Shown here in pieces: positions 27,014 through 38,609 of a DNA stretch of 38,703 nt. Origin of the DNA: Candidatus Moraniibacteriota bacterium. Its GTDB lineage: Bacteria > Patescibacteriota > Minisyncoccia > Moranbacterales > UBA1568. How positions within the stretch are numbered: position 1 is the first letter of the stretch; the number at the start of each line of letters is the position of its first letter. The stretch is taken from contig JAQTYF010000002.1 in assembly GCA_028688415.1 (NCBI GenBank), positions 1 to 38,703 on the forward strand, in the 5' to 3' direction. A program made the translations under genes and the position numbers. The notes below the pieces were generated by a model, which saw nothing but the letters and a program-made list of their open reading frames with translations, had not been told where the DNA came from and searched no databases.

Positions 27014-27040
27014 AAAAACCAGCCAAAGAGGCTGGTTTTT
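27014..27040 (+). terminator. fusA terminator
   Basis: An 11-bp perfect stem (AAAAACCAGCC/GGCTGGTTTTT) with a 5-nt loop and T-tract. It separates fusA from the following gene and from tuf. Confidence 0.85.
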
Positions 27041-27618: not shown

Positions 27619-27647
27619 TTGACAGAATTGAAATGAGTTGGTATCAT
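27619..27647 (+). promoter_or_regulatory. tuf promoter
   Basis: TTGACA (27619-27624), 17-nt spacer, TATCAT (27642-27647). It leaves a leader of about 120 nt that can fold (for example TTTTTTC/GAAAAAA around 27670-27696). Confidence 0.7.
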
Positions 27648-27776: not shown

Positions 27777-28991
27777 ATGGCGTACTCATACGATACATCT
27801 ATGGCAGAGCAATTTGATCGCAGCAAACCACACGTAAACGTCGGTACTATCGGTCACGTCGACCATGGAAAGACAACTCTGACTGCAGCTATTCTGCACG
27901 TTCAGCATTTCTTGGGTATGGCCGCAGAAAAAGGTATCGATGAAATCGACAAAGCTCCAGAGGAACGTGAACGTGGTATCACTATCGCAACTGCTCACTG
28001 TGAATATTCTACTGAAGCTCGTCACTATGCACACGTAGATTGTCCTGGTCACGCTGACTATATCAAAAACATGATTACAGGTGCCGCTCAAATGGACGGT
28101 GCTATTCTCGTTGTGTCTGCTACTGATGGTCCTATGCCACAGACTCGTGAGCACATCCTCTTGGCTCGCCAGGTAGGTGTACCTGCTATCGTTGTGTTTT
28201 TGAACAAGGTAGATATGGTGGATGATGAAGAACTCATCGAACTCGTCGAAGCTGAAATCCGCGAACTCCTTTCCAAATACGAATTTGACGGTGACAAAGC
28301 GGTTATCGTTCGTGGAAGTGCTCTCAAAGCTCTCAATGTAAAGTCTGCTGAGGATCCAGATGCAAAACCAATTCTCGACCTCATGAAAGCTATCGATGAG
28401 AACATTCCACAACCAGTACGTGATTTGGACAAACCATTCCTTCTCCCTATCGAAGATATCTTTTCTATCGAAGGTCGTGGAACAGTAGTAACTGGACGTA
28501 TCGAACGTGGTGTGATCAACATCAACGAAGAAGTAGAAATCATCGGTCTCGCTGATACACGAAAAACAGTAGTGACTGGTATTGAAATGTTCAACAAGTC
28601 TCTCAACCGCGGAGAATGTGGTGACAATGCTGGTCTCCTCATCCGAGGTATCAAAAAAGAAGATGTACAGCGTGGTCAGGTATTGGCCAAAACTGGTTCT
28701 ATCACTCCTCATACTGAATTCGACGGTGAAGTATACGTACTGTCCAAAGAAGAAGGTGGACGTCACACTCCATTCTTCAAGGGATACAAACCACAATTCT
28801 ATATCCGTACCACTGATGTGACCGGTGAAGTAGAATTGCCAGAGGGAACAGAAATGGTTATGCCTGGTGATACTGTAAAACTGAAAATCAAACTCCTCGC
28901 ACCTGTTGCTATGGAAGACGGTATGCGATTCGCTATTCGCGAAGGTGGCCGTACAGTAGGCGCTGGTGTTGTGACAAAAATTTTGAAATAG
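27777..28991 (+). CDS. tuf: Translation elongation factor Tu
   Basis: Delivers aminoacyl-tRNA to the ribosome. GHVDHGKT (P-loop), ERGITI, DCPGH and NKVD are all present, and the three domains are complete. The start is uncertain. ATG 27777 (MAYSYDTS, then [11 protein letters not shown]) follows an SD-led leader frame by 2 nt. ATG 27801 gives the usual family N-terminus and 396 residues. It has its own promoter. Confidence 0.99.
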
Positions 28992-29007
28992 TCCGCCAGC
29001 TGGCGGA
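28992..29007. repeat. 16-bp perfect palindrome behind tuf
   Basis: TCCGCCAGCTGGCGGA begins at the base after the tuf stop codon. Such GC-rich palindromes occur elsewhere in this window as well. Confidence 0.85.
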
Positions 29008-29010
29008 TCG

Positions 29011-29063
29011 AGAGAATCGAGTGGGGAAGCAACTGAAAAAAGTTGCCCCCACGATCATTCTCT
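29011..29063 (+). terminator. Large hairpin between tuf and rpsJ
   Basis: AGAGAAT/ATTCTCT, GTGGGG/CCCCAC and GCAACT/AGTTGC stack, with small bulges, into a stem of about 19 pairs with a 6-8 nt loop. There is no T-tract, so it may be a processing site or regulatory structure rather than a terminator. Confidence 0.5.
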
Positions 29064-29099
29064 TGAAAGAGGGATAAATAGTACATCATAAATGACGCA

Positions 29100-29426
29100 A
29101 TGAAAAAGATAGAAACAACGCAAGACCTACGTGTCAGAATCAAAATCAAGGCTTATGATCACAAAGTGATCGATCAGTCGGCGAGAAAAATTGTGGAAAC
29201 AGCAGAGCGTACTGGAGCGATCATTACTGGCCCCGTACCGCTTCCGACAGAAATCCACAAAGTAACCGTCAACCGTTCGACTTTTGTCCATAAGAACTCA
29301 CGTGATCAGTACGAGATGCGTGTACACAAAAGATTGATCGACATCACCAATCCAACTGCCAAAACTATCGAGAATCTTACGAACCTCGATTTGCCAGCAG
29401 GAGTAGACGTCGAAATAAAAATGTAG
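29100..29426 (+). CDS. rpsJ: 30S ribosomal protein uS10
   Basis: A 108-residue protein with [20 protein letters not shown] and the [11 protein letters not shown] motif typical of S10 (NusE), which also takes part in antitermination with NusB. First gene of the S10 cluster. It is separated from rplC by 173 bp that contain a terminator-type hairpin. Confidence 0.98.
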
Positions 29427-29542
29427 TATCATTGCAAGTCAAGAAAACATTTATTACCAATAGATAAAATACTCGTTCAAGTCTTCATCTCCGTATCTGA
29501 TAAAAGGAAGGGAGAAGTAAGATACTAAGCGAGCCACGTTTG

Positions 29543-29578
29543 AAAAAACTGGCTGTCTTAGAAAGAGCCAGTTTTTTT
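29543..29578 (+). terminator. Intrinsic-terminator hairpin between rpsJ and rplC (attenuator candidate)
   Basis: AAAAAACTGGCT (29543-29554) and AGCCAGTTTTTT (29566-29577) form a 12-bp perfect stem with an 11-nt loop, ending in seven T. Only 21 bp remain before the rplC ATG, too few for a new promoter, so downstream expression must pass through it. Confidence 0.8.
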
Positions 29579-29599
29579 ATTACCAAACGAATCAGCCTT

Positions 29600-30208
29600 A
29601 TGAAATTTCTTCTCGGAAAAAAACTCGGAATGACAACGCTTTTTGATGAAACAAAAGGTGCTTTGAATGTTACCATGATTGCCTGTCAAGAAAACACCGT
29701 TGTTCTCAATCGTACTTTCGAAAAAGATGGCTATCTCGCCGTACAACTTGAGATTGATAAAACAGGAAAGAAATCTGTCCGTAAAGAATTCCGTGTCGAC
29801 AAGGCCATAACAATCGCAGAAAACCGCGCTGGTCTCGTAACAGAGTTGGAAAAATATCCAATCGCAAGTAAAATCAATGTTTCTCTTTTCGCTCTGGGTG
29901 ATCAGGTCAATATTTCTGGCGTGACGAAAGGAAAAGGATTTCAGGGAACAGTCAAACGATATGGATTTGCCGGAGGTCGCAAGACGCACGGTGGTAAGCA
30001 CGATTTGCGCAAGCCAGGATCTATCGGAGCAACATTCCCAGAACACGTTGTCAAAGGTCGCCGTATGGCAGGACGTATGGGCGGTGTCAATATGACTGCT
30101 CTCAATCTCACGGTTGTTTATGTCAATGAAGAAGAAGGGTTGATCGGTGTCCGAGGTGCTGTACCAGGAGTGAATGGACGTGTAGTGAAAATAATGAGCG
30201 TGAAATAA
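29600..30208 (+). CDS. rplC: 50S ribosomal protein uL3
   Basis: A 202-residue protein. The ATG at 29600 (MKFLLGKKLGMTTLFDE) is the family-typical start; the longer frame upstream runs through the terminator hairpin. GKGFQGTVKRYGFAGG and the loop around GSIGATFPEHVVKGRRMAG reach toward the peptidyl-transferase centre. rplD follows after 8 nt. Confidence 0.98.
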   Translation: MKFLLGKKLGMTTLFDETKGALNVTMIACQENTVVLNRTFEKDGYLAVQLEIDKTGKKSVRKEFRVDKAITIAENRAGLVTELEKYPIASKINVSLFALGDQVNISGVTKGKGFQGTVKRYGFAGGRKTHGGKHDLRKPGSIGATFPEHVVKGRRMAGRMGGVNMTALNLTVVYVNEEEGLIGVRGAVPGVNGRVVKIMSVK

Positions 30209-30216
30209 TCACAGAT

Positions 30217-30870
30217 ATGACCAAGATTACTGTAAAAAACACAGCAGGCAAAGATGTAAAGGAAATCGAATTAGTAGATTTCGTTTTCAATGTACCTGCA
30301 AACAATACATTGCTTCATCAGATTTACGTCGCTCAAACAAGTAACCTCCGCAAACCTATTGCTCACACCAAGGATCGTAGCGAGCGCAGTGGCTCTGGTA
30401 TCAAACCTTGGCGTCAGAAGGGAACGGGGCGTGCTCGTGCTGGTTCTGCTCAGAGTCCTTTGTGGCGTAAGGGTGGAGTGACATTTGGACCGACCAAAGA
30501 TCGAAATTTTAGCAAAGATACCAATCAGAAAATGCGTCAGAAGGCAGTTATGATTGCTCTTTCAGAAAAAATTCGTTCTGGAAAAATGATCGTGGTTGAT
30601 GAATTGAATTATACTGAAAAGAAAACAAAATTGTTTGCTGAGACACTGAAAGCTTTCGGTATCACAAACAGAAGTCTCGTGCTTTCGCTTACGGGTGATG
30701 AACGAGCACTGACTGTGATGAGCCGTAATATTCCAAAAGTAGAGAATACTCTGACTGAAATGTTGAATGTTGTGCAACTCCTCGATCGTGAATATTTGAT
30801 CATTACAGAAGCTGGTATCAAAAATCTCGAAAATCGTTTCGCAGTATGGAATAAGCAGGAGACCAAGTAA
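30217..30870 (+). CDS. rplD: 50S ribosomal protein uL4
   Basis: A 217-residue protein. The tunnel loop KPWRQKGTGRARAGSAQSPL, followed by WRKGGVTFGP, is intact. In E. coli, L4 represses its own operon by attenuation in the S10 leader. Here the only terminator-like hairpin lies behind rpsJ, so L4 is the candidate regulator (inference). Confidence 0.98.
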   Translation: MTKITVKNTAGKDVKEIELVDFVFNVPANNTLLHQIYVAQTSNLRKPIAHTKDRSERSGSGIKPWRQKGTGRARAGSAQSPLWRKGGVTFGPTKDRNFSKDTNQKMRQKAVMIALSEKIRSGKMIVVDELNYTEKKTKLFAETLKAFGITNRSLVLSLTGDERALTVMSRNIPKVENTLTEMLNVVQLLDREYLIITEAGIKNLENRFAVWNKQETK

Positions 30871-30879
30871 TATAAATGT

Positions 30880-31260
30880 ATGGCATTATTCAAGAAAACA
30901 ACTGAAGAAACGAAAGAAAAAACAGTGAAAACTGTTGTTCCAAAGGAAAAGACTGTAGCAGTCAAAGAAAGTCCTTTGGCAACACAGCTTTTGCTCCGTC
31001 CTCGTGTTACTGAAAAAGCGTACGCTCTCAACGCTCTCAATCAATTTGTTTTTATTGTTGCGAAAGAAGCAACGAAAAAATCAATCAAGAGAGCTGTCGA
31101 AGAAGCCTACAGTGTCACAGTAGAGCAAGTCAATATCGTTAAATTGCCTGCAAAGACACGAGTTATGGGAAAGAATATCGGTACAAAAGGTGCCATCAAG
31201 AAAGCAATTATTAGTGTGAAAAAAGGACAGACAATAGAACTCTTTAAGGGTGGTATGTAA
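30880..31260 (+). CDS. rplW: 50S ribosomal protein uL23 with N-terminal extension
   Basis: The 126-residue protein has the L23 core from about residue 34 (LLRPRVTEKAYAL), including the extended hairpin (TRVMGKNIGTKGAIKKA). A charged N-terminal extension of about 30 residues (KKTTEETKEKTVKTVVPKEK) precedes it. L23 lies at the tunnel exit and docks trigger factor and SRP, so the extension would project there. Confidence 0.96.
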   Translation: MALFKKTTEETKEKTVKTVVPKEKTVAVKESPLATQLLLRPRVTEKAYALNALNQFVFIVAKEATKKSIKRAVEEAYSVTVEQVNIVKLPAKTRVMGKNIGTKGAIKKAIISVKKGQTIELFKGGM

Positions 31261-31284
31261 TTCTCACTGCGGTAGCAAATCATT

Positions 31285-32112
31285 ATGGCAATCAAAATCT
31301 ACAAAAAGAATAATGCGGGACGACGTAATATGTCGGTGGTGAAACCAGATGGTTTGACTGACAGAAAACCGGAAAAATCCCTCCTCTCAGCTCTTCCAAA
31401 GAAAGCTGGTCGTTCTGGCGGAAAAATTTCCGTGCGACACCAGGGTGGTGGAGTCAAGCGTCGCTATCGTATCGTCGATTTTCGTCAAGACAAGTGGAAT
31501 ATTCCTGGACGTATCGCAAGTATCGAAAAAGATCCGAATCGTTCTGCTCTTATCGCACTCGTCCATTATGCTGATGGAGAAAAACGGTATATCCTCGCTA
31601 CCGATGGAATGCGACAAGGACAAAACGTTCTTTCTGGAGAAGAAACTCCGATCGTCAATGGTAATCGATTGCTTCTTAAAAATATTCCTGTCGGAACGAC
31701 TATCTGCAATATTGAAATGAAAATCGGCAAAGGCGGACAGATTGTCCGAAGCGCTGGAGCACAAGCAACACTCATGGCTCTTGATGGTCCGATGGCACAA
31801 ATCAAACTCACTTCTGGAGAAATCCGTTTGATCAGTAAAGATTGTTATGCTACGCTCGGGCAAGTGAGTAATTTCGAACACAGTGCTGAAACGATTGGTA
31901 AAGCGGGACGCGCCCGACATATGAATCATCGCCCAGCCGTTCGTGGTAGCGCAATGAACCCAGTCGATCATCCACACGGTGGAGGAGAAGGACGTCAGCC
32001 GATTGGTATGCATCCGAAGACCCCATGGGGTAAGCCGGCACTCGGCAAGAAAACTCGCAAGAGAAAAAATATCACGAGTAAATATATTGTGAAACGTCGT
32101 CAGAAGAAATAG
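31285..32112 (+). CDS. rplB: 50S ribosomal protein uL2
   Basis: A 275-residue protein needed for subunit association and the peptidyl-transferase centre. The conserved GSAMNPVDHPHGGGEGR with its essential His is present, and the C-terminus is Lys/Arg-rich. Normal length. Confidence 0.99.
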   Translation: MAIKIYKKNNAGRRNMSVVKPDGLTDRKPEKSLLSALPKKAGRSGGKISVRHQGGGVKRRYRIVDFRQDKWNIPGRIASIEKDPNRSALIALVHYADGEKRYILATDGMRQGQNVLSGEETPIVNGNRLLLKNIPVGTTICNIEMKIGKGGQIVRSAGAQATLMALDGPMAQIKLTSGEIRLISKDCYATLGQVSNFEHSAETIGKAGRARHMNHRPAVRGSAMNPVDHPHGGGEGRQPIGMHPKTPWGKPALGKKTRKRKNITSKYIVKRRQKK

Positions 32113-32133
32113 TATTATAATAAAGCCAACTGT

Positions 32134-32481
32134 ATGTCTAGAAGTCTCAAAAAAGGTCCATATGTCGATCCACGCGTGCTCAAAAAGCTCGAAGGGAAGA
32201 AACTTGGCGATCGTACTGTCATCAAAACATGGTCACGATCCTGCACAATATCTCCTGAAATGACTGGTTTTACGTTTGGTGTTCATAATGGAAAAATCTT
32301 CATCCCTGTTCTTGTTACAGAAGAAATGGTAGGACACAAGCTCGGTGAATTTTCCCCGACTCGTACATTCCATCGTCATGGAGGAAAGATGCAGAAAGAC
32401 CTCGAAACAGCTGCTAAACAACGTGAACTCGATGCTGCCAAAGCCGCCAAGAATGCGACTCCAGCCGCCGGTAAGAAATAG
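32134..32481 (+). CDS. rpsS: 30S ribosomal protein uS19 with C-terminal extension
   Basis: [20 protein letters not shown] is the S19 start and [19 protein letters not shown] the core end. A helical Ala/Lys-rich tail of about 25 residues ([20 protein letters not shown]) is extra compared with the usual 92. Confidence 0.98.
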
Positions 32482-32489
32482 ATACAATT

Positions 32490-33014
32490 ATGAAGGTACA
32501 AGCTACACTCACCAATCTCCGAATAGCTCCACGTAAAGTGCGTCTCGTGACCCACGCTCTTGTTGGTATTGATGCCAATGAAGCTTTGATCCAGCTTTCC
32601 AAGTTGGTGAAAAAGTCTTCTGAACCGATCGCTACTCTTTTGAAAAGCGCTATCGCCAATGCAACTCATAACAACGGATTGGATGCTCAAAATCTCTATA
32701 TTTTCGAGATTCGTGTCGGAGATGGTTTGCGACTGAAACGCTGGTTGCCTCGAGCTTTTGGACGAGCGACTCCTTTGCTCCATCGTGGTTCCAATGTGAC
32801 GATTATTCTGGAAGAAAAAATAGAAGGAAAGAATCGTACTGAGAAGAAAACTAACGAAGAAATCGTTACGATCAAAGAAGCAGACATAGTCGAAACGAAA
32901 AAAGCCCCTGCTGTTTCAAAACACACAGAAAAAATAGGATCAAACAGTGGAGTATCCAACAAAACAACCGCAGGAAAAGTAGTCAAGAAAGTATTCCAAA
33001 GAAAATCGATATAA
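32490..33014 (+). CDS. rplV: 50S ribosomal protein uL22 with long C-terminal extension
   Basis: The core (residues 1-110: RIAPRKVRLVTHALVGIDAN, then LKRWLPRAFGRATPL for the tunnel loop) is followed by about 65 charged, low-complexity residues ending KVVKKVFQRKSI. E. coli L22 has 110 residues. The 113 bp before rpsC carry a long hairpin. Confidence 0.97.
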   Translation: MKVQATLTNLRIAPRKVRLVTHALVGIDANEALIQLSKLVKKSSEPIATLLKSAIANATHNNGLDAQNLYIFEIRVGDGLRLKRWLPRAFGRATPLLHRGSNVTIILEEKIEGKNRTEKKTNEEIVTIKEADIVETKKAPAVSKHTEKIGSNSGVSNKTTAGKVVKKVFQRKSI

Positions 33015-33032
33015 TGAAAGAGCTTGTAGGTG

Positions 33033-33097
33033 GTAGCTTCTTAGCTTGTAGAGAAAAAGAGATTCTTTTTCAGAAAAGCTACAGACTAAGAAGCTAC
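33033..33097. repeat. Long hairpin between rplV and rpsC
   Basis: The arms 33033-33051 and 33079-33097 (GTAGCTTCTTAG and its complement, 19 nt, two mismatches) enclose a second hairpin (GAAAAAGA/TCTTTTTC, 33053-33071). Repeated AGCTTGTAG/TAGCTAC words make the spacer look like a dispersed intergenic repeat. There is no T-tract beyond the outer stem. Confidence 0.75.
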
Positions 33098-33127
33098 TAG
33101 CTACGGTGCTAATAAGCTATAAAAAAT

Positions 33128-33793
33128 ATGGGCAATAAAGTAAATCCAACTGGCATTCGTCTCGGTATTACCACGCAGTGGCAATCCCTTTGGTTTGGTA
33201 CGAAAAAGACATACAGTGAACAGCTCCGCAAAGACGTAGAAATACGCTCACTCATTATGAGTAAGTGGAAAGCGGCAGCCATCGCTTCTGTCCGTATCGA
33301 CCGTTCTATGAATGTGGTAAAGCTCATGGTAGAGACGGCTCGTCCAGGTGTTCTCATCGGACGAGGAGGAACAGGTATCGAAGATCTCGCACGTGTCATC
33401 AAAAAGAAATTCTTTGCTGGAAAGAAAGTGGATTTGAAAGTAGATGTGCAAGAAGTAAAAAATCCTGAAACCAGTGCGATACTTGTTGGACAGCAAGTTG
33501 CGGAACAATTGGAAAAACGTATGCCGTTCCGTCGTATTTTGAAAACAATGTTGGATCAAGTAGAAGCCAACAAGACGGTGCAGGGAGTAAAAATAGAACT
33601 TTGTGGTCGTCTCGGTGGTGCAGAAATGGCTCGTCGCGAATGGTTGTCTCGTGGAAAAATTCCTCTTCATACACTGCGTGCTGACATTGACTTTGCTCGT
33701 ACAGAAGCGCACACTACGTATGGTGTTATCGGAATCAAGACCTGGATTTATAAAGGTGAAAAGTTCGAAGAAGTAGCGGTTGAAAAAGAATAA
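33128..33793 (+). CDS. rpsC: 30S ribosomal protein uS3
   Basis: A 221-residue protein. MGNKVNPTGIRLGI at the start, the KH-domain GRGGTGIEDL loop and the C-terminal LGGAEMARREWLSRGKIPLH are conserved. S3 lines the mRNA entry channel. rplP follows after 12 nt. Confidence 0.98.
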   Translation: MGNKVNPTGIRLGITTQWQSLWFGTKKTYSEQLRKDVEIRSLIMSKWKAAAIASVRIDRSMNVVKLMVETARPGVLIGRGGTGIEDLARVIKKKFFAGKKVDLKVDVQEVKNPETSAILVGQQVAEQLEKRMPFRRILKTMLDQVEANKTVQGVKIELCGRLGGAEMARREWLSRGKIPLHTLRADIDFARTEAHTTYGVIGIKTWIYKGEKFEEVAVEKE

Positions 33794-33805
33794 TAGAAGT
33801 ATCCT

Positions 33806-34216
33806 ATGTTAATGCCAAAAAAAGTTAAACATCGCAAAATCCACCGCGGAGGTTGGTCTGGGAGTCCAGCAACGAGCGGGGATAAAGTAAGTTTTGGAAC
33901 CTATGGTTTGAAAGCTGTCGAGGAAGGTCTCGTATCTGCTCGTCAGATCGAAGCTGCCAGACGTGCGATGACACACTCTATCCAGCGTGGTGGAAAAATA
34001 TGGATTCGCATATTTCCTGATAAACCGATGACCAAGAAAGGTGAACAAACCCCAATGGGTAAAGGAAAAGGAAGTGTTGATCATTTTGTTGCCAAAATAC
34101 GATCCGGAAAAGTTCTTTTCGAACTCGACGGTATCACGAAGTCAGCAGCAGAAGAAGCAATGCGACTCGCATCACATAAATTGGCTATCAAAACAAAGTT
34201 TGTTACACGTCAGTAA
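33806..34216 (+). CDS. rplP: 50S ribosomal protein uL16
   Basis: A 136-residue protein. [11 protein letters not shown] at the start and [20 protein letters not shown] are family-typical. M3 would be an alternative start, but MLMPK is the common opening. Confidence 0.98.
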
Positions 34217-34251
34217 AGAAGATTTATAAAAGTTATAAAGTTGATAGAAGT

Positions 34252-34455
34252 ATGAAAGCAAAAGAATGGAGAGAAAAATCAGCAGGTGAATGCGAGAAGG
34301 CAATTCTCGAATTATCTGATAAGGCTCGCAAGCTTCGTTTTGATTTGGCTACTCGTGAGACAAAAATTCATAGCGAATACAGAAAAGCCAAGAAAGATAT
34401 CGCCCGTCTGAAAACGCTCAAACAAGAATCCGTGCTTTCAATTAATGTAGACTAA
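34252..34455 (+). CDS. rpmC: 50S ribosomal protein uL29
   Basis: A 67-residue two-helix protein ([20 protein letters not shown], then the RKAKKDIARLKTL helix). It sits at the tunnel exit. rpsQ follows after 4 nt. Confidence 0.95.
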   Translation: MKAKEWREKSAGECEKAILELSDKARKLRFDLATRETKIHSEYRKAKKDIARLKTLKQESVLSINVD

Positions 34456-34459
34456 GTAT

Positions 34460-34723
34460 ATGGAAAAAGGAACACCTACAATTACAAAGACACAGCACGC
34501 TCCTACAAGAACGGGTATTGTCGTCAGTAACAAGATGGACAAAACGATCGTGGTTGCTGTCGATACATTGAAGACCCATCCGAAGTATCTGAAACAGTAC
34601 CGATCGACAAAACGTTACAAGGTCCATGTTGAAGAGAATAAGTATACGATCGGAGAAAAAGTGACTTTTCAGGAATGTCGACCGATCAGTCGTGATACCT
34701 TTCATAAAATCATCGCTCTGTAA
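34460..34723 (+). CDS. rpsQ: 30S ribosomal protein uS17
   Basis: An 87-residue OB-fold protein with RTGIVVSNKMDKTIVVAVD and GEKVTFQECRPISRDT, the usual S17 motifs. Confidence 0.97.
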   Translation: MEKGTPTITKTQHAPTRTGIVVSNKMDKTIVVAVDTLKTHPKYLKQYRSTKRYKVHVEENKYTIGEKVTFQECRPISRDTFHKIIAL

Positions 34724-34741
34724 TCAAGAAATAGTATTTGT

Positions 34742-35113
34742 ATGATCCAAGCAGAATCAAAATTGATAGTCGCCGACAACAGTGGCGCAAAAATGATCAA
34801 GTGCTTCAAGGTACTTGGTGGAACCAGACGGCGCTATGCAGGTCTCGGTGATATCATTGTGGCTTCTGTCAAATCAGCTGAACCACGGGGTATGGTGAAA
34901 AAAGGAGAAATCGTCAAGGCCGTGATTGTTCGTCAAGTGAGATCATATCGTCGCAAGGACAACTCTTATATCCGATTTGATGAAAACGCAGCTGTGATTC
35001 TCGATGCAAACAAGATTGATCCGAAAGGAACACGTATCTTTGGTCCGATTGCTCGCGAACTCCGTGAAAAAGGATTTTCAAAGATTGTTTCTCTCGCTCC
35101 AGAAGTTTTATAA
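34742..35113 (+). CDS. rplN: 50S ribosomal protein uL14
   Basis: A 123-residue protein. [17 protein letters not shown] and the C-terminal [20 protein letters not shown] are highly conserved. Standard length. Confidence 0.99.
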
Positions 35114-35122
35114 AGTACACAT

Positions 35123-35428
35123 ATGAAGATTAAGAAAGGTGATCAAGTAGAAATAACAGCAGGGAAAGATTCCGGAAAACGCGGAGAAGTGTTGTTCGTA
35201 TTTCCTAAGATTGATAAAATCGTCGTCAAAGGTGCAAATATCATGAAACGTCATATCAAAGCGACTCGTGACGGAGAAAAAGGTCAACGTATTGAGAAAG
35301 AAGCCCCACTCCATGTCTCCAATGTGATGCTCGTATGTCCTCATTCAGGAAAATTGACTCGTATTGGATACAAGATCGAGGGTGGAGAAAAAGTCCGCAT
35401 CAGCAAGAAGTCAGGCAAGACTATTTAA
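35123..35428 (+). CDS. rplX: 50S ribosomal protein uL24
   Basis: A 101-residue protein with an N-terminal KOW motif ([20 protein letters not shown]) and the [15 protein letters not shown] tail. It starts 9 nt after rplN. Confidence 0.98.
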
Positions 35429-35456
35429 TTTACAAAGTGTGTAGAGGAGATCTCGT

Positions 35457-36023
35457 ATGAAAATGTTACACAAGAAACAATTGTATACCGAAAAAGTGGT
35501 TCCTGCTTTGCAGAAGGAACTTGGTATTGAAAACGTGATGGCCGTTCCTCGTCTGGGGAAAATCGTCGTGAACATCGGTACTGGTAAGATCTTGAAAGAC
35601 TCCAAGCGAGTCGAAGATGCTATAGCATCTCTCGAAGCGATCACTGGACAGAAAGTCATCGCAACCAAAGCACGCAAAGCTATCGCCGGATTCAAAACTC
35701 GTGAAGGTTTGGAGGTCGGGGCTCGTGTGACGCTCCACGGGAAACGTATGTGGAACTTTTTGGACCGACTCGTGAATATCGCCCTCCCTCGTGTACGTGA
35801 TTTCCAGGGTATTCCCAAGAGCTCGATTGATCAGAGCGGAAACTGTAACATTGGTATCAAAGAGCATCTCGTTTTTCCAGAAATTGTCGCAGAGAAAGTA
35901 CAGAACATCTTTAGTTTCCAAGTCAACATTGTTACAACGGCGAAGAATAGGAAAGAAGGGGAAGCATTGTTTCGCCTTCTCGGACTGCCGATGGAACAGG
36001 TTGAAGTAAAAAAGGAAAAGTAA
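35457..36023 (+). CDS. rplE: 50S ribosomal protein uL5
   Basis: A 188-residue 5S rRNA-binding protein. IVVNIGTGKILKDSKRV, ITGQKVIATKARKAIAGFK and the central VRDFQGIPKSSIDQSGN are conserved. The start is M1 (35457) or M3 (35463). Confidence 0.98.
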   Translation: MKMLHKKQLYTEKVVPALQKELGIENVMAVPRLGKIVVNIGTGKILKDSKRVEDAIASLEAITGQKVIATKARKAIAGFKTREGLEVGARVTLHGKRMWNFLDRLVNIALPRVRDFQGIPKSSIDQSGNCNIGIKEHLVFPEIVAEKVQNIFSFQVNIVTTAKNRKEGEALFRLLGLPMEQVEVKKEK

Positions 36024-36038
36024 TATATCGATATTTAT

Positions 36039-36224
36039 ATGGCAAAGACATCTACACAAGCTAGAGCACTCAAAACCCCGAAGTTTTCCACGCGTATCGT
36101 GAATCGTTGTTGGAAATGTGGTCGTAAACGCGGGTATCTCCGTACATATGATGTATGTCGTATCTGTTTCCGTGAGCTCGCCAATAGTGGCCAGATCCCT
36201 GGAGTAAAAAAATCATCTTGGTAA
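36039..36224 (+). CDS. rpsN: 30S ribosomal protein uS14, zinc-binding type
   Basis: A 61-residue protein with C24-x2-C27 and C40-x2-C43 ([20 protein letters not shown]), the zinc-ribbon form of S14 (also named rpsZ). It sits in the usual place between rplE and rpsH. Confidence 0.97.
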
Positions 36225-36240
36225 ATTTAAGTTAGACACT

Positions 36241-36648
36241 ATGTTAGACCCAATCGCAGACATGTTAACCAGAATTCGAAACGCACAGGCTGCTGGCCAC
36301 GCGTCAGTTTCTATGCCGATTTCGAAAATGAAATTCGTTCTTGCTTCTATTCTCGAACACGAAGGATTTATCGGTCGTTTCGAAAAACAGACGACTGAAG
36401 ATGCACACGAGAATTTGTGTATCTGGCTTAAATATACCCAGGTTTCTCCGACAAAAAAAGCTCCAGCTATCCAAGAATTGACACGTGTCAGTAAACAGGG
36501 TTGCCGTATCTATGTCAAAAAGAGTGAAATTAAAAAAGTGAAGAACGGATACGGTATCGCTATTGTGTCTACTTCAGAAGGAATAATGACTGGTACGGAA
36601 GCATATCGTCGAGGGTTGGGAGGAGAATATATTTGTAAAGTGTGGTAA
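36241..36648 (+). CDS. rpsH: 30S ribosomal protein uS8
   Basis: A 135-residue protein. MLDPIADMLTRIRNAQAAGH and the C-terminal VSTSEGIMTGTEAYRRGLGG are typical. S8 represses the spc operon in E. coli; no matching operator has been identified here. Confidence 0.98.
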   Translation: MLDPIADMLTRIRNAQAAGHASVSMPISKMKFVLASILEHEGFIGRFEKQTTEDAHENLCIWLKYTQVSPTKKAPAIQELTRVSKQGCRIYVKKSEIKKVKNGYGIAIVSTSEGIMTGTEAYRRGLGGEYICKVW

Positions 36649-36673: not shown

Positions 36674-37210
36674 ATGAGTAGAATTGGAAAAAAACCTGTA
36701 AGTATCCCAAGTGGTGTCGAAATAAGTGTCGATAATCATAAGGTTACCGTAAAAGGACCGAAAGGAACACTGACATTTTCTCATACACGTGAAGTCAAAG
36801 TATCTGTCGTGGAAAACGAAGTACTGGTAACAAAAGTCGGTGATACCAAAAAAGCACGAGCACTCTGGGGAACAACAACGAAATTGATTGCGAATATGAT
36901 CGTTGGTGTGACAACTGGTTTCCAAAAACAACTTGAATTGAATGGTGTCGGATACCGTATGTCTGTCTCAGGCAAGAAATTGATACTTGCGCTTGGTTTC
37001 TCTCATCCTGTTGAAAAAATCGTATCAGAAGGATTGGAAGCAAAGATAGAAAACAACGTCCTGACTCTCTCTGGTATTGATAAACAATTGGTAGGTGAAT
37101 TCACTGCTGTTATCAGAAAATTAAAGCCAGTAGAACCATACAAAGGAAAAGGTTTTCGTTATGTTGGTGAAGTTGTCCGTCGTAAGGAAGGAAAGAAAGC
37201 CGCCGCCTAA
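36674..37210 (+). CDS. rplF: 50S ribosomal protein uL6
   Basis: A 178-residue protein. MSRIGKKPVSIPSGVEI at the start and KPVEPYKGKGFRYVGEVVRR at the end are conserved. Confidence 0.98.
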   Translation: MSRIGKKPVSIPSGVEISVDNHKVTVKGPKGTLTFSHTREVKVSVVENEVLVTKVGDTKKARALWGTTTKLIANMIVGVTTGFQKQLELNGVGYRMSVSGKKLILALGFSHPVEKIVSEGLEAKIENNVLTLSGIDKQLVGEFTAVIRKLKPVEPYKGKGFRYVGEVVRRKEGKKAAA

Positions 37211-37230
37211 TATAAGCTAGAAAAACGAGT

Positions 37231-37587
37231 ATGCTCAAGAGAGAAATGAAAAAAGTGAAACGATTTGAACGGAAACGTCGTGTCCGTGCCAAAATTTCTG
37301 GCACAGCAGAGTGTCCGCGTCTTTCAGTTTTTCGAAGTCTGAGAAACATTTCTGTTCAAGCGATAAATGATGAAACAGGAAAAACAATCGCAGCTGCAGA
37401 TCTCTTGTTGCTTGGAAAAAAAGCAGAACATACCGTCGCAGGTGCTGCGCTTGTTGGTAAAGAAATTGCTACAAAACTCTCGAAACTGGGAGTAGAGAAA
37501 GCAGTGTTTGATCGTTCTGGATACAAGTATCATGGCAAAGTGAAAGCACTTGCAGAAGCTGCGCGTATTGCTGGTCTAGTATTTTAA
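37231..37587 (+). CDS. rplR: 50S ribosomal protein uL18
   Basis: A 118-residue 5S rRNA-binding protein with RKRRVRAKISGTAECPRLSV, then FRSLRNISVQ, and the C-terminal FDRSGYKYHGKVKALAEAAR. Normal length. Confidence 0.97.
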   Translation: MLKREMKKVKRFERKRRVRAKISGTAECPRLSVFRSLRNISVQAINDETGKTIAAADLLLLGKKAEHTVAGAALVGKEIATKLSKLGVEKAVFDRSGYKYHGKVKALAEAARIAGLVF

Positions 37588-37619
37588 GTAGTGATATTAA
37601 TCGAGATTTCAAGTATCTT

Positions 37620-38162
37620 ATGGTAAAGCAAGGAAAAAAAATGGGACGTCGCGAGAAGCCGGAGTTTGATCAAAAACTCCTCAATTTGGCTCGCGTGACA
37701 CGTGTAGTAAAAGGTGGTCGACGTTTCCGTTTTCGTGCGACGCTTGTTATCGGTAACCGAAAAGGAAAAGTTGGTGTGGGTGTCGCCAAAGGATCTGATG
37801 TTTCTGATGCTATCCAGAAGGCTTTCAATGATGCCAAGAAGAATATGATCACCGTCGAACTTGCTGGCTCTACTATTTCTCATGATGTGCTCGCAAAACT
37901 CGGTAGTGCTCGAGTACTCCTCAAACCAGCATCTCAAGGACAGGGTATTATTGCTGGTGGAGCGGTACGATCGGTTGTTAACTTGCTCGGAGTGAAAGAT
38001 ATTGTTTCTAAATCTCTCGGTGCTTCCAATCCTTTGAATGTCGCTCGTGTCACTGTAAAAGCTCTTCAGATGTTGAAAGCTCCTCGCGTTCCAAAAGCAG
38101 TGAAAGCGACATCAGAAAATGTCGTCCTGAGCGAAGTCGAAGGAACTCACAATGCTAAATAA
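37620..38162 (+). CDS. rpsE: 30S ribosomal protein uS5 with repeat-derived C-terminus
   Basis: A 180-residue protein. The core is normal (RVTRVVKGGRRFRFRATLVI; GSTISHDVLAKLGSARVLLK). Residues 169-175 (VLSEVEG) are encoded by a dispersed-repeat sequence (38125-38144), so part of the tail appears to derive from a repeat insertion. rpmD, which normally follows, is missing: rplO starts 18 nt downstream. Confidence 0.97.
   Translation: MVKQGKKMGRREKPEFDQKLLNLARVTRVVKGGRRFRFRATLVIGNRKGKVGVGVAKGSDVSDAIQKAFNDAKKNMITVELAGSTISHDVLAKLGSARVLLKPASQGQGIIAGGAVRSVVNLLGVKDIVSKSLGASNPLNVARVTVKALQMLKAPRVPKAVKATSENVVLSEVEGTHNAK
38125..38144 (+). repeat. Dispersed repeat TCCTGAGCGAAGTCGAAGGA inside rpsE
   Basis: Related to the copy at 26974-26990 (TCCTGAGC, variable centre, TCGAAG). 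It lies in frame near the rpsE 3' end without disrupting the gene. Confidence 0.8.
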
Positions 38163-38180
38163 ACTCTTGAAAGACTGATT

Positions 38181-38609
38181 ATGCAAATTCATCAACTCAC
38201 TGTTACAAAAAAGAAATCACGTAAGCGTATTGGACGCGGTGGTAAGCGTGGTACGACTGCTGGTCGTGGAAGTAATGGTCAGAAATCTCGTTCTGGTGCT
38301 TCTGTGGATCCTCTCTTTGAAGGTGGACGCTCTACTTTCCTCGAGCGTTTGAAGAAAGTACGTGGTTTCAAATCTATTCATCAGAAGAAATGTCTCGTGA
38401 AATTGTTTCAATTGGAACAGGCATTTTCTGACGGAGAAACCGTTTCTCTCGCAACGCTTCTGGCCAAGAAATTGGTTCCGAAAACAGCCACAGCTCTTGG
38501 TGTAAAAATCGTCGCTACCGGTGAACTCAAAAAGAAACTCACCCTTGGTAAAGATGTGACTGCCTCTGTCAAAGCGCAGGCTTCTTTCAAAGATGTTGTG
38601 ACCGAATAG
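38181..38609 (+). CDS. rplO: 50S ribosomal protein uL15
   Basis: A 142-residue protein. The Gly/Arg-rich N-terminal arm (GRGGKRGTTAGRGSNGQKSR) and the helical C-terminal domain are present. Last gene in the window; a new promoter follows at 38625. Confidence 0.97.
   Translation: MQIHQLTVTKKKSRKRIGRGGKRGTTAGRGSNGQKSRSGASVDPLFEGGRSTFLERLKKVRGFKSIHQKKCLVKLFQLEQAFSDGETVSLATLLAKKLVPKTATALGVKIVATGELKKKLTLGKDVTASVKAQASFKDVVTE

Follow-up and report, generated by a model that had tools for sequence, protein, structure and literature searches.

What is a complete intrinsic terminator doing inside the S10 gene cluster? The hairpin in question lies between rpsJ and rplC in a window of 38,703 nt (the whole stretch of DNA analysed here). 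The source genome comprises about 1.02 Mb in 9 contigs, and the organism is regarded as belonging to Candidatus Moraniibacteriota, Patescibacteria. The rpsJ-rplC spacer quite likely encodes a transcription attenuator through which ribosomal protein S8 controls its own synthesis, and surplus S8 would probably halt transcription of about 19 ribosomal genes at once. Very small genomes are often thought to have little regulation. The element is a concrete regulatory feature for such genomes, and as a defined RNA it opens S8 control of ribosomal protein genes to testing in a phylum with hardly any genetics.

Gene order and sampled loci

The genes of the window run in the order rpsL, rpsG, fusA, tuf and rpsJ, followed by rplC to rplO (Table 1). 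Nineteen ribosomal protein genes lie 3' of the hairpin within the window. Gene families were assigned by Pfam and NCBIfam; rpmC and rpsN were assigned by place and sequence only. The promoter-like site before tuf is a possible start of the tuf-rpsJ-S10-spc transcript, on which the genes on both sides of the hairpin would be transcribed together. Two other structured regions were observed upstream of rpsJ. The tuf-rpsJ spacer (108 nt, -43.0 kcal/mol) forms a small and a long hairpin at 28997-29067 with no T tract, and may serve in processing or protection. Another hairpin, resembling a terminator (AAAAACCAGCC/GGCTGGTTTTT), stands at 27014-27040 after fusA, between the fusA and tuf units.

For comparison at order level, 92 genomes were searched, 91 of which had an rplC match; the rplC start was absent in two of those. 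The resulting sample consists of 89 rpsJ-rplC spacers including the window's own (29427-29599). In all 89 loci rpsJ precedes rplC, and the spacers are 105-438 bp long.

Table 1. Positions of the genes and RNA features discussed, in window coordinates.
Feature	Position	Strand	Basis
Promoter-like site TTGACA-17-TATCAT (11/12), before tuf	27619-27647	+	consensus scan, sequence match only
tuf (EF-Tu), upstream of attenuator	27777-28991	+	Pfam
rpsJ (S10), upstream of attenuator	29100-29426	+	Pfam
P1 5' strand CUCGUU	29472-29477	+	
S8-like loop, 5' side CAAGUC (E. coli positions 594-599)	29478-29483	+	
P2 hairpin, length varies among relatives; first pairs continue from loop	29484-29520	+	
S8-like loop, 3' side GAUACUA (E. 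coli positions 639-645)	29521-29527	+	
P1 3' strand AGCGAG, common to aptamer and antiterminator	29528-29533	+	
P3, predicted antiterminator AGCCA/UGGCU + GUUU/AAAC, takes terminator 5' arm	29532-29554	+	folding
Intrinsic terminator with T7 tract	29543-29578	+	sequence, folding, conservation
Terminator 5' arm AAAAAACTGGCT	29543-29554		
Terminator loop, 11 nt	29555-29565		
Terminator 3' arm AGCCAGTTTTTT	29566-29577		
T7 tract	29572-29578		
rplC (L3), first gene past terminator	29600-30208	+	Pfam
rplD, rplW, rplB, rpsS, rplV, rpsC, rplP	within 30217-36224	+	family tests
rpmC, after rplP	34252-34455	+	place and sequence only
rpsQ, rplN, rplX, rplE, between rpmC and rpsN	within 30217-36224	+	family tests
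rpsN	36039-36224	+	place and sequence only
rpsH (S8), proposed ligand	36241-36648	+	Pfam and NCBIfam; STS motif
rplF, rplR, rpsE, rplO, downstream of rpsH	36674-38609	+	NCBIfam

The terminator before rplC

The preliminary description of this DNA reported a 12-bp perfect stem with a T7 tract 21 bp (29579-29599) before the rplC ATG, and the sequence bears out these coordinates exactly. Six of the 12 pairs are A-U pairs formed by the terminating T tract itself, and the part of the stem independent of the tract is CUGGCU/AGCCAG. The 81-nt RNA around the hairpin folds with a z-score of -2.96 (1 of 200 shuffles as good), and the whole rpsJ-rplC spacer with a z-score of -4.04 (0 of 200). A generic terminator scan of the window did not list the 29543-29577 hairpin because its rule takes loops of 3-8 nt only.

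A terminator of comparable score precedes rplC in 80 of the 89 order spacers (window included), compared with 5.7% of shuffled spacers. This conservation confirms that the terminator is real, and transcription would be expected to end there in the cell as well. A consensus scan listed no sigma-70-like site between the hairpin and the rplC ATG, in agreement with the earlier statement that no promoter fits there. The interval originally assigned to the feature (29543-29599) does contain the hairpin, but covers only the last part of a conserved element that starts at 29472.

A conserved two-helix domain upstream of the terminator

The hairpin forms the last third of this larger element of the rpsJ-rplC spacer. 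Upstream of it, at 29472-29533, lies a two-helix, aptamer-like domain of 62 nt. The motif common to the order spacers consists of helix P1 (typically CUCGUU or CUAGUU with its complement) around the loop nnAGUC ... GAUACUn, whose two strands are separated by a P2 hairpin that differs greatly in length among loci. A systematic pattern scan detected the domain in 88 of the 89 spacers, and shuffled spacers reach the score of 12 in 4.2% of cases; in the sole exception, L084, a terminator-like end is present and the aptamer was not found. The loop is the nearly invariant part. Its core reads AGUC/GAUACU in 81 spacers and AGUC/GAAACU in four, and CGUC/GAAACC, AGUU/AAUACU and AGUU/AAAACU occur once each. 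In the latter two the 599-639 pair is kept through a double change.

The helices are supported by covariation. In 28 untrimmed aptamers 95.7% of cells pair, compared with at most 48.4% in slid controls, and RNAalifold independently predicts the same two helices, P1 and P2. The main set consisted of 80 distinct aptamers trimmed to equal length. In this set 9 of 13 pairs change on both sides, double changes were counted in 141 cells compared with 52.6 in shuffles, and 93.9% of cells are paired compared with 25-48% (at most 48.3%) in slid controls; the slid control removes relatedness and the shuffle control does not. The preliminary description had named absent pairing in relatives as a reason to abandon its reading; pairing is conserved among the relatives in the order.

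Two other folds were considered: an H-type pseudoknot within 29488-29525 and a resemblance to a tRNA T-loop (GTTCAAGTC). Both were dropped as the common fold because P1 covariation and the GUUAAAGUC variants exclude them.

Resemblance of the loop to S8 binding sites

The primary S8 site is described in the available text of PMC4176348 as a helix broken by seven conserved loop nucleotides, among which are an invariant A642 and the members of two triples, (G597-C643)-U641 and A595-(A596-U644). The aptamer internal loop AAGUC/GAUACU carries these seven nucleotides as found in helix 21 of E. coli 16S rRNA, which in MG1655 reads UUAAGUC-AGAUG...CAUCU-GAUACUGG. As in 16S rRNA, the asymmetric loop stands between two helices (here the covarying P1 and P2) with its strands in the same order. 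All seven nucleotides are identical to E. coli helix 21 in 74 of 88 leaders, including that of the window; the other 14 deviate at position 595 or have A at 641, except L019, which deviates at 596, 641 and 644. The pair 594/645, U.G in E. coli, is mostly A.C, C.A or A.G in the leaders.

A scan with the loop and two-helix pattern ranked helix 21 first in the E. coli rrnH region (score 13.5; next 4.0 on that strand). The same pattern with position 644 free also placed helix 21 first in the organism's own 16S locus (15.5), the next hit (11.0) lying downstream of the 16S gene. The own helix 21 reads UUAGUC/GAAACGG and so differs from the leader at 595, 641 and 644, and all 30 16S loci examined in the order (L090-L119) read UAGUC/GAAACG, departing from the E. 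coli S8 site at the same positions. The leader is therefore nearer to the E. coli-type S8 site than to that of its own lineage, which weighs against the S8 reading. Sameness with the own 16S rRNA is nevertheless not taken here as a defining feature of an S8 site, because the two natural sites of E. coli are not identical either: position 641 is U in 16S and A in spc.

The S8 protein encoded in the window keeps the STS motif. The backbone of these residues is reported in the accessible part of PMC4176348 to stack on the A642 equivalent. Judged by its nucleotides, the loop looks like a putative S8-type protein site, which S8 would bind.

Locus specificity and the position of rpsH

A covariance model (R1) built from 28 sequences has a single match in the source genome, at 29472-29533. 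It matches 83 of the 89 spacer loci, training sequences included, and gives one further weak hit at E 0.99. Among 36 whole genomes, 21 had a single hit each with an E-value of 0.05 or better, and comparison with the places of rplC put all 21 hits just upstream of that gene. In 15 of the 36 genomes R1 had no hit, though the pattern scan finds the core in every spacer examined of theirs, so the model is specific and not sensitive. Under strict filters R1 was found in 15 of 285 genomes of the class, a figure that gives no prevalence because the filters missed even the source genome. R1 matched helix 21 in none of the 30 16S loci of the order (0/30), nor in E. coli, another point against the S8 reading.

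The gene of the proposed ligand lies within the unit that would be regulated. In all 77 genomes with both genes on one contig, rpsH follows on the same strand, 6361-7682 bp past the rplC start; in 12 genomes the two genes lie on different contigs.

The predicted antiterminator and the proposed switch

When the RNA of the window is folded up to the terminator loop, a third helix (P3) occupies most of the terminator 5' arm together with the end of the P1 3' strand. Its AGCCA overlaps P1 by two bases, and there are two outer pairs in addition. The P3 analysis handled 86 of the 89 leaders (L077, L084 and L089 fell below the entry score), and the script found a terminator in 79 of these. Among the seven missed leaders, a hairpin with AT8 after it can be seen in L038, L039 and L050, where the script's rule overlooked it.

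In 68 of 79 leaders P3 occupies three or more nucleotides of the terminator 5' arm, and in 77 of 79 it uses P1 3' nucleotides. When the P1 strand is held, P3 loses a median of 6.5 kcal/mol. The terminator is part of the MFE structure in 73 of 79 leaders with the P1 strand held compared with 31 of 79 with it free, and in 42 of 79 when the full leader folds freely. On average the gain from the real P1 strand is 6.1 kcal/mol, compared with 3.1 for its own permutations, and the real strand beats the permutation mean in 70 of 79 leaders; only 32 of 79 individually pass a 5% rank test for this energy gain. For the leader of the window itself, the MFE structure contains the terminator with or without the P1 strand. 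The absence of a thermodynamic flip counts against the proposed switch; a switch there would have to be kinetic, the decision resting on P3 forming first.

In the proposed mechanism, transcripts arriving through tuf and rpsJ would form the aptamer first. S8 in excess of free 16S rRNA would bind the helix-21-like loop and keep P1 closed. The P1 3' strand would then be unavailable for the antiterminator, the terminator 5' arm would be free, and polymerase would halt at the T tract. When S8 is consumed by ribosome assembly, the terminator 5' arm would instead pair, through its UGG(CU), with the P1 3' strand and the following CCA; P3 would then be in place, and polymerase would continue into rplC, rpsH and the genes after them. 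S8 control would extend to the S10-spc genes but spare EF-Tu and S10.

The same parts could also work with the opposite sign, S8 or another protein on the aptamer stabilising stacked P1 and P3 and favouring readthrough. P1 and P3 are adjacent, and in some leaders, the window's among them, they share only the last P1 bases. The use of P1 bases by P3 in nearly all leaders, and the energy that P3 loses when they are held, argue against this version. Positive feedback by a ribosomal protein would moreover be unusual, and such a control is unlikely; an inhibitory response to S8 is the preferred sign.

Relation to known ribosomal protein regulation

The closest parallel to negative feedback by S8 through a terminator is the L10(L12)4 attenuator of B. 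subtilis rplJL, in which the protein promotes termination of its own operon; an rRNA-like protein-site helix (anti-antiterminator) overlaps the antiterminator, which overlaps an intrinsic terminator (PMC4538822, available text). The arrangement predicted here matches that system: a terminator stands before the first regulated gene, the antiterminator extends over its 5' arm, and the protein-site helix extends over the antiterminator. The systems differ in that the B. subtilis element is a promoter-proximal leader with a kink-turn plus UAA, whereas the present one lies between two genes of a cluster in another phylum and has an S8-type loop as its predicted ligand site. Conservation, mutually exclusive helices and the aptamer-like domain together give good support to the original proposal of regulated attenuation inside the S10 operon.

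The S8 operator of the E. coli spc operon has the same loop strands, AAGUC and GA(U/A)ACU, and the S8 gene downstream (available portions of PMC4176348 and PMC10931766). In E. coli the operator sits at the rplE start with the GAAACU strand first (GAAACU at +6, AAGUC at +80), and translation is repressed. Here the sole R1 match of the genome lies before rplC and not at the rplE start, the strands are in 16S order, a terminator comes next and the S10 genes are included. The comparison suggests that a site used by a translational repressor in E. coli serves in this lineage as a transcription switch over the S10 and spc genes together.

Premature termination also limits S10-operon expression through a ribosomal protein in E. 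coli, where the L4-NusA attenuator lies in the S10 leader, upstream of rpsJ, as the preliminary description correctly stated (PMC10931766, accessible text). That description had suggested L4, or S10 itself as NusE, as possible actors, and neither is supported. L4 or another protein of the operon could be the ligand by analogy with E. coli, and rplD is the second gene past the terminator. However, the element lies behind rpsJ in all 89 loci (with the aptamer in 88), the loop fits an S8 site and not a known L4 leader, and Rfam gave no leader match: the whole window yielded two tRNAs only at gathering threshold, and a permissive scan of 28950-29700 only four sub-threshold hits. A role of L4 is very unlikely on this evidence. 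Antitermination by NusB-S10 via boxA might be expected with S10 encoded just upstream. In 29427-29599, however, there is no boxA-like 12-mer with up to 3 mismatches, and the 43 matches in the window against 43.9 expected are at chance level; both results refer to the E. coli consensus only. With the S8 signature of the aptamer also pointing elsewhere, this route is extremely improbable.

Feedback through an S8-type site remains the preferred reading. Conserved covarying RNAs upstream of ribosomal protein genes were also predicted by Eckert and Weinberg in 2020 (PMC7247131). Table 1 of that paper, as available, lists 20 new r-leaders, none with S8 as ligand and none in Patescibacteria, and the r-leader with rplC as first gene is archaeal (L4, Archaeoglobi). 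Neither an S8 leader nor an attenuator between rpsJ and rplC was found described for Patescibacteria in the literature searched, subscription papers being mostly outside the search. Autogenous ribosomal protein attenuators and S8-type sites are known; their combination, at this place and in this lineage, was not found described.

Distribution in Patescibacteria

Within the 150 nt that precede rplC, a terminator was detected in 72 of 89 loci of the order, 52 of 83 loci from other orders of the class and 22 of 47 loci of the phylum set (shuffles 1-5%), and in none of 29 loci of other phyla with spacers of at least 45 nt. The phylum set includes three loci of the same class (L244, L250, L262). 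The minimum length of 45 nt removed 1 of 84 loci from the class set and, after four loci had already been omitted, 44 of 73 from the other-phyla set. For the 80 loci L266-L345 the 450 nt before rplC were scanned in place of the exact spacer.

Clear S8-type cores are less widespread. In the class set outside the order they precede rplC in L218, L220, L282 and L314 (4 of 83 at score 14; shuffled 0.7%); the first three form a single family in which the 599-639 pair has become A-U or G-C. On the same pattern outside the order are L215 (12.5) and G291/L210, the core of the latter lying between rpsJ and rplC. Of the 47 loci in the phylum set, 8 reach score 13 (shuffled 2.8%), mostly with GAAACU forms. 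The terminator is therefore wider in distribution than the recognisable S8 loop, and the S8-like sensor is largely a feature of this order.

One alternative is a constitutive terminator of partial efficiency that does no more than set how much EF-Tu and S10 is made relative to the other ribosomal proteins, with the aptamer-like part serving RNA stability or processing. This would account for terminators kept before rplC where no S8 loop is recognisable, as in the class and phylum sets. It would leave unexplained the invariant protein-site-like loop, the covarying P1 and the overlap of P1, P3 and terminator, and is an unlikely explanation. S8-sensed attenuation is preferred for the order. For the phylum, a tentative proposal is that the rpsJ-rplC terminator may be a Patescibacteria-wide valve of ribosome synthesis with exchangeable ligands, S8 in this order and some other lineages and different, unrecognised sensors elsewhere, EF-Tu and S10 being spared.

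Several loci have features of their own. In other orders of the class (L215-L238, L266-L325), where terminators are common and the S8-type loop is mostly unrecognisable, other sensors may sit before rplC. In family f5 (L071, L074, L075, L076, L077, L080, L081, L085) a strong sigma-70-like promoter (TTGACA, TATACT-like; in L071 seen by eye only) is found between aptamer and terminator, so its transcripts would lack the aptamer yet meet the terminator. L021, L046, L058, L060 and L064 share an insert of about 150 nt between terminator and rplC, with the core ATCGCCTGCGGC and the end ...GGTGCGGGATGCTCA, which looks repeated or mobile.
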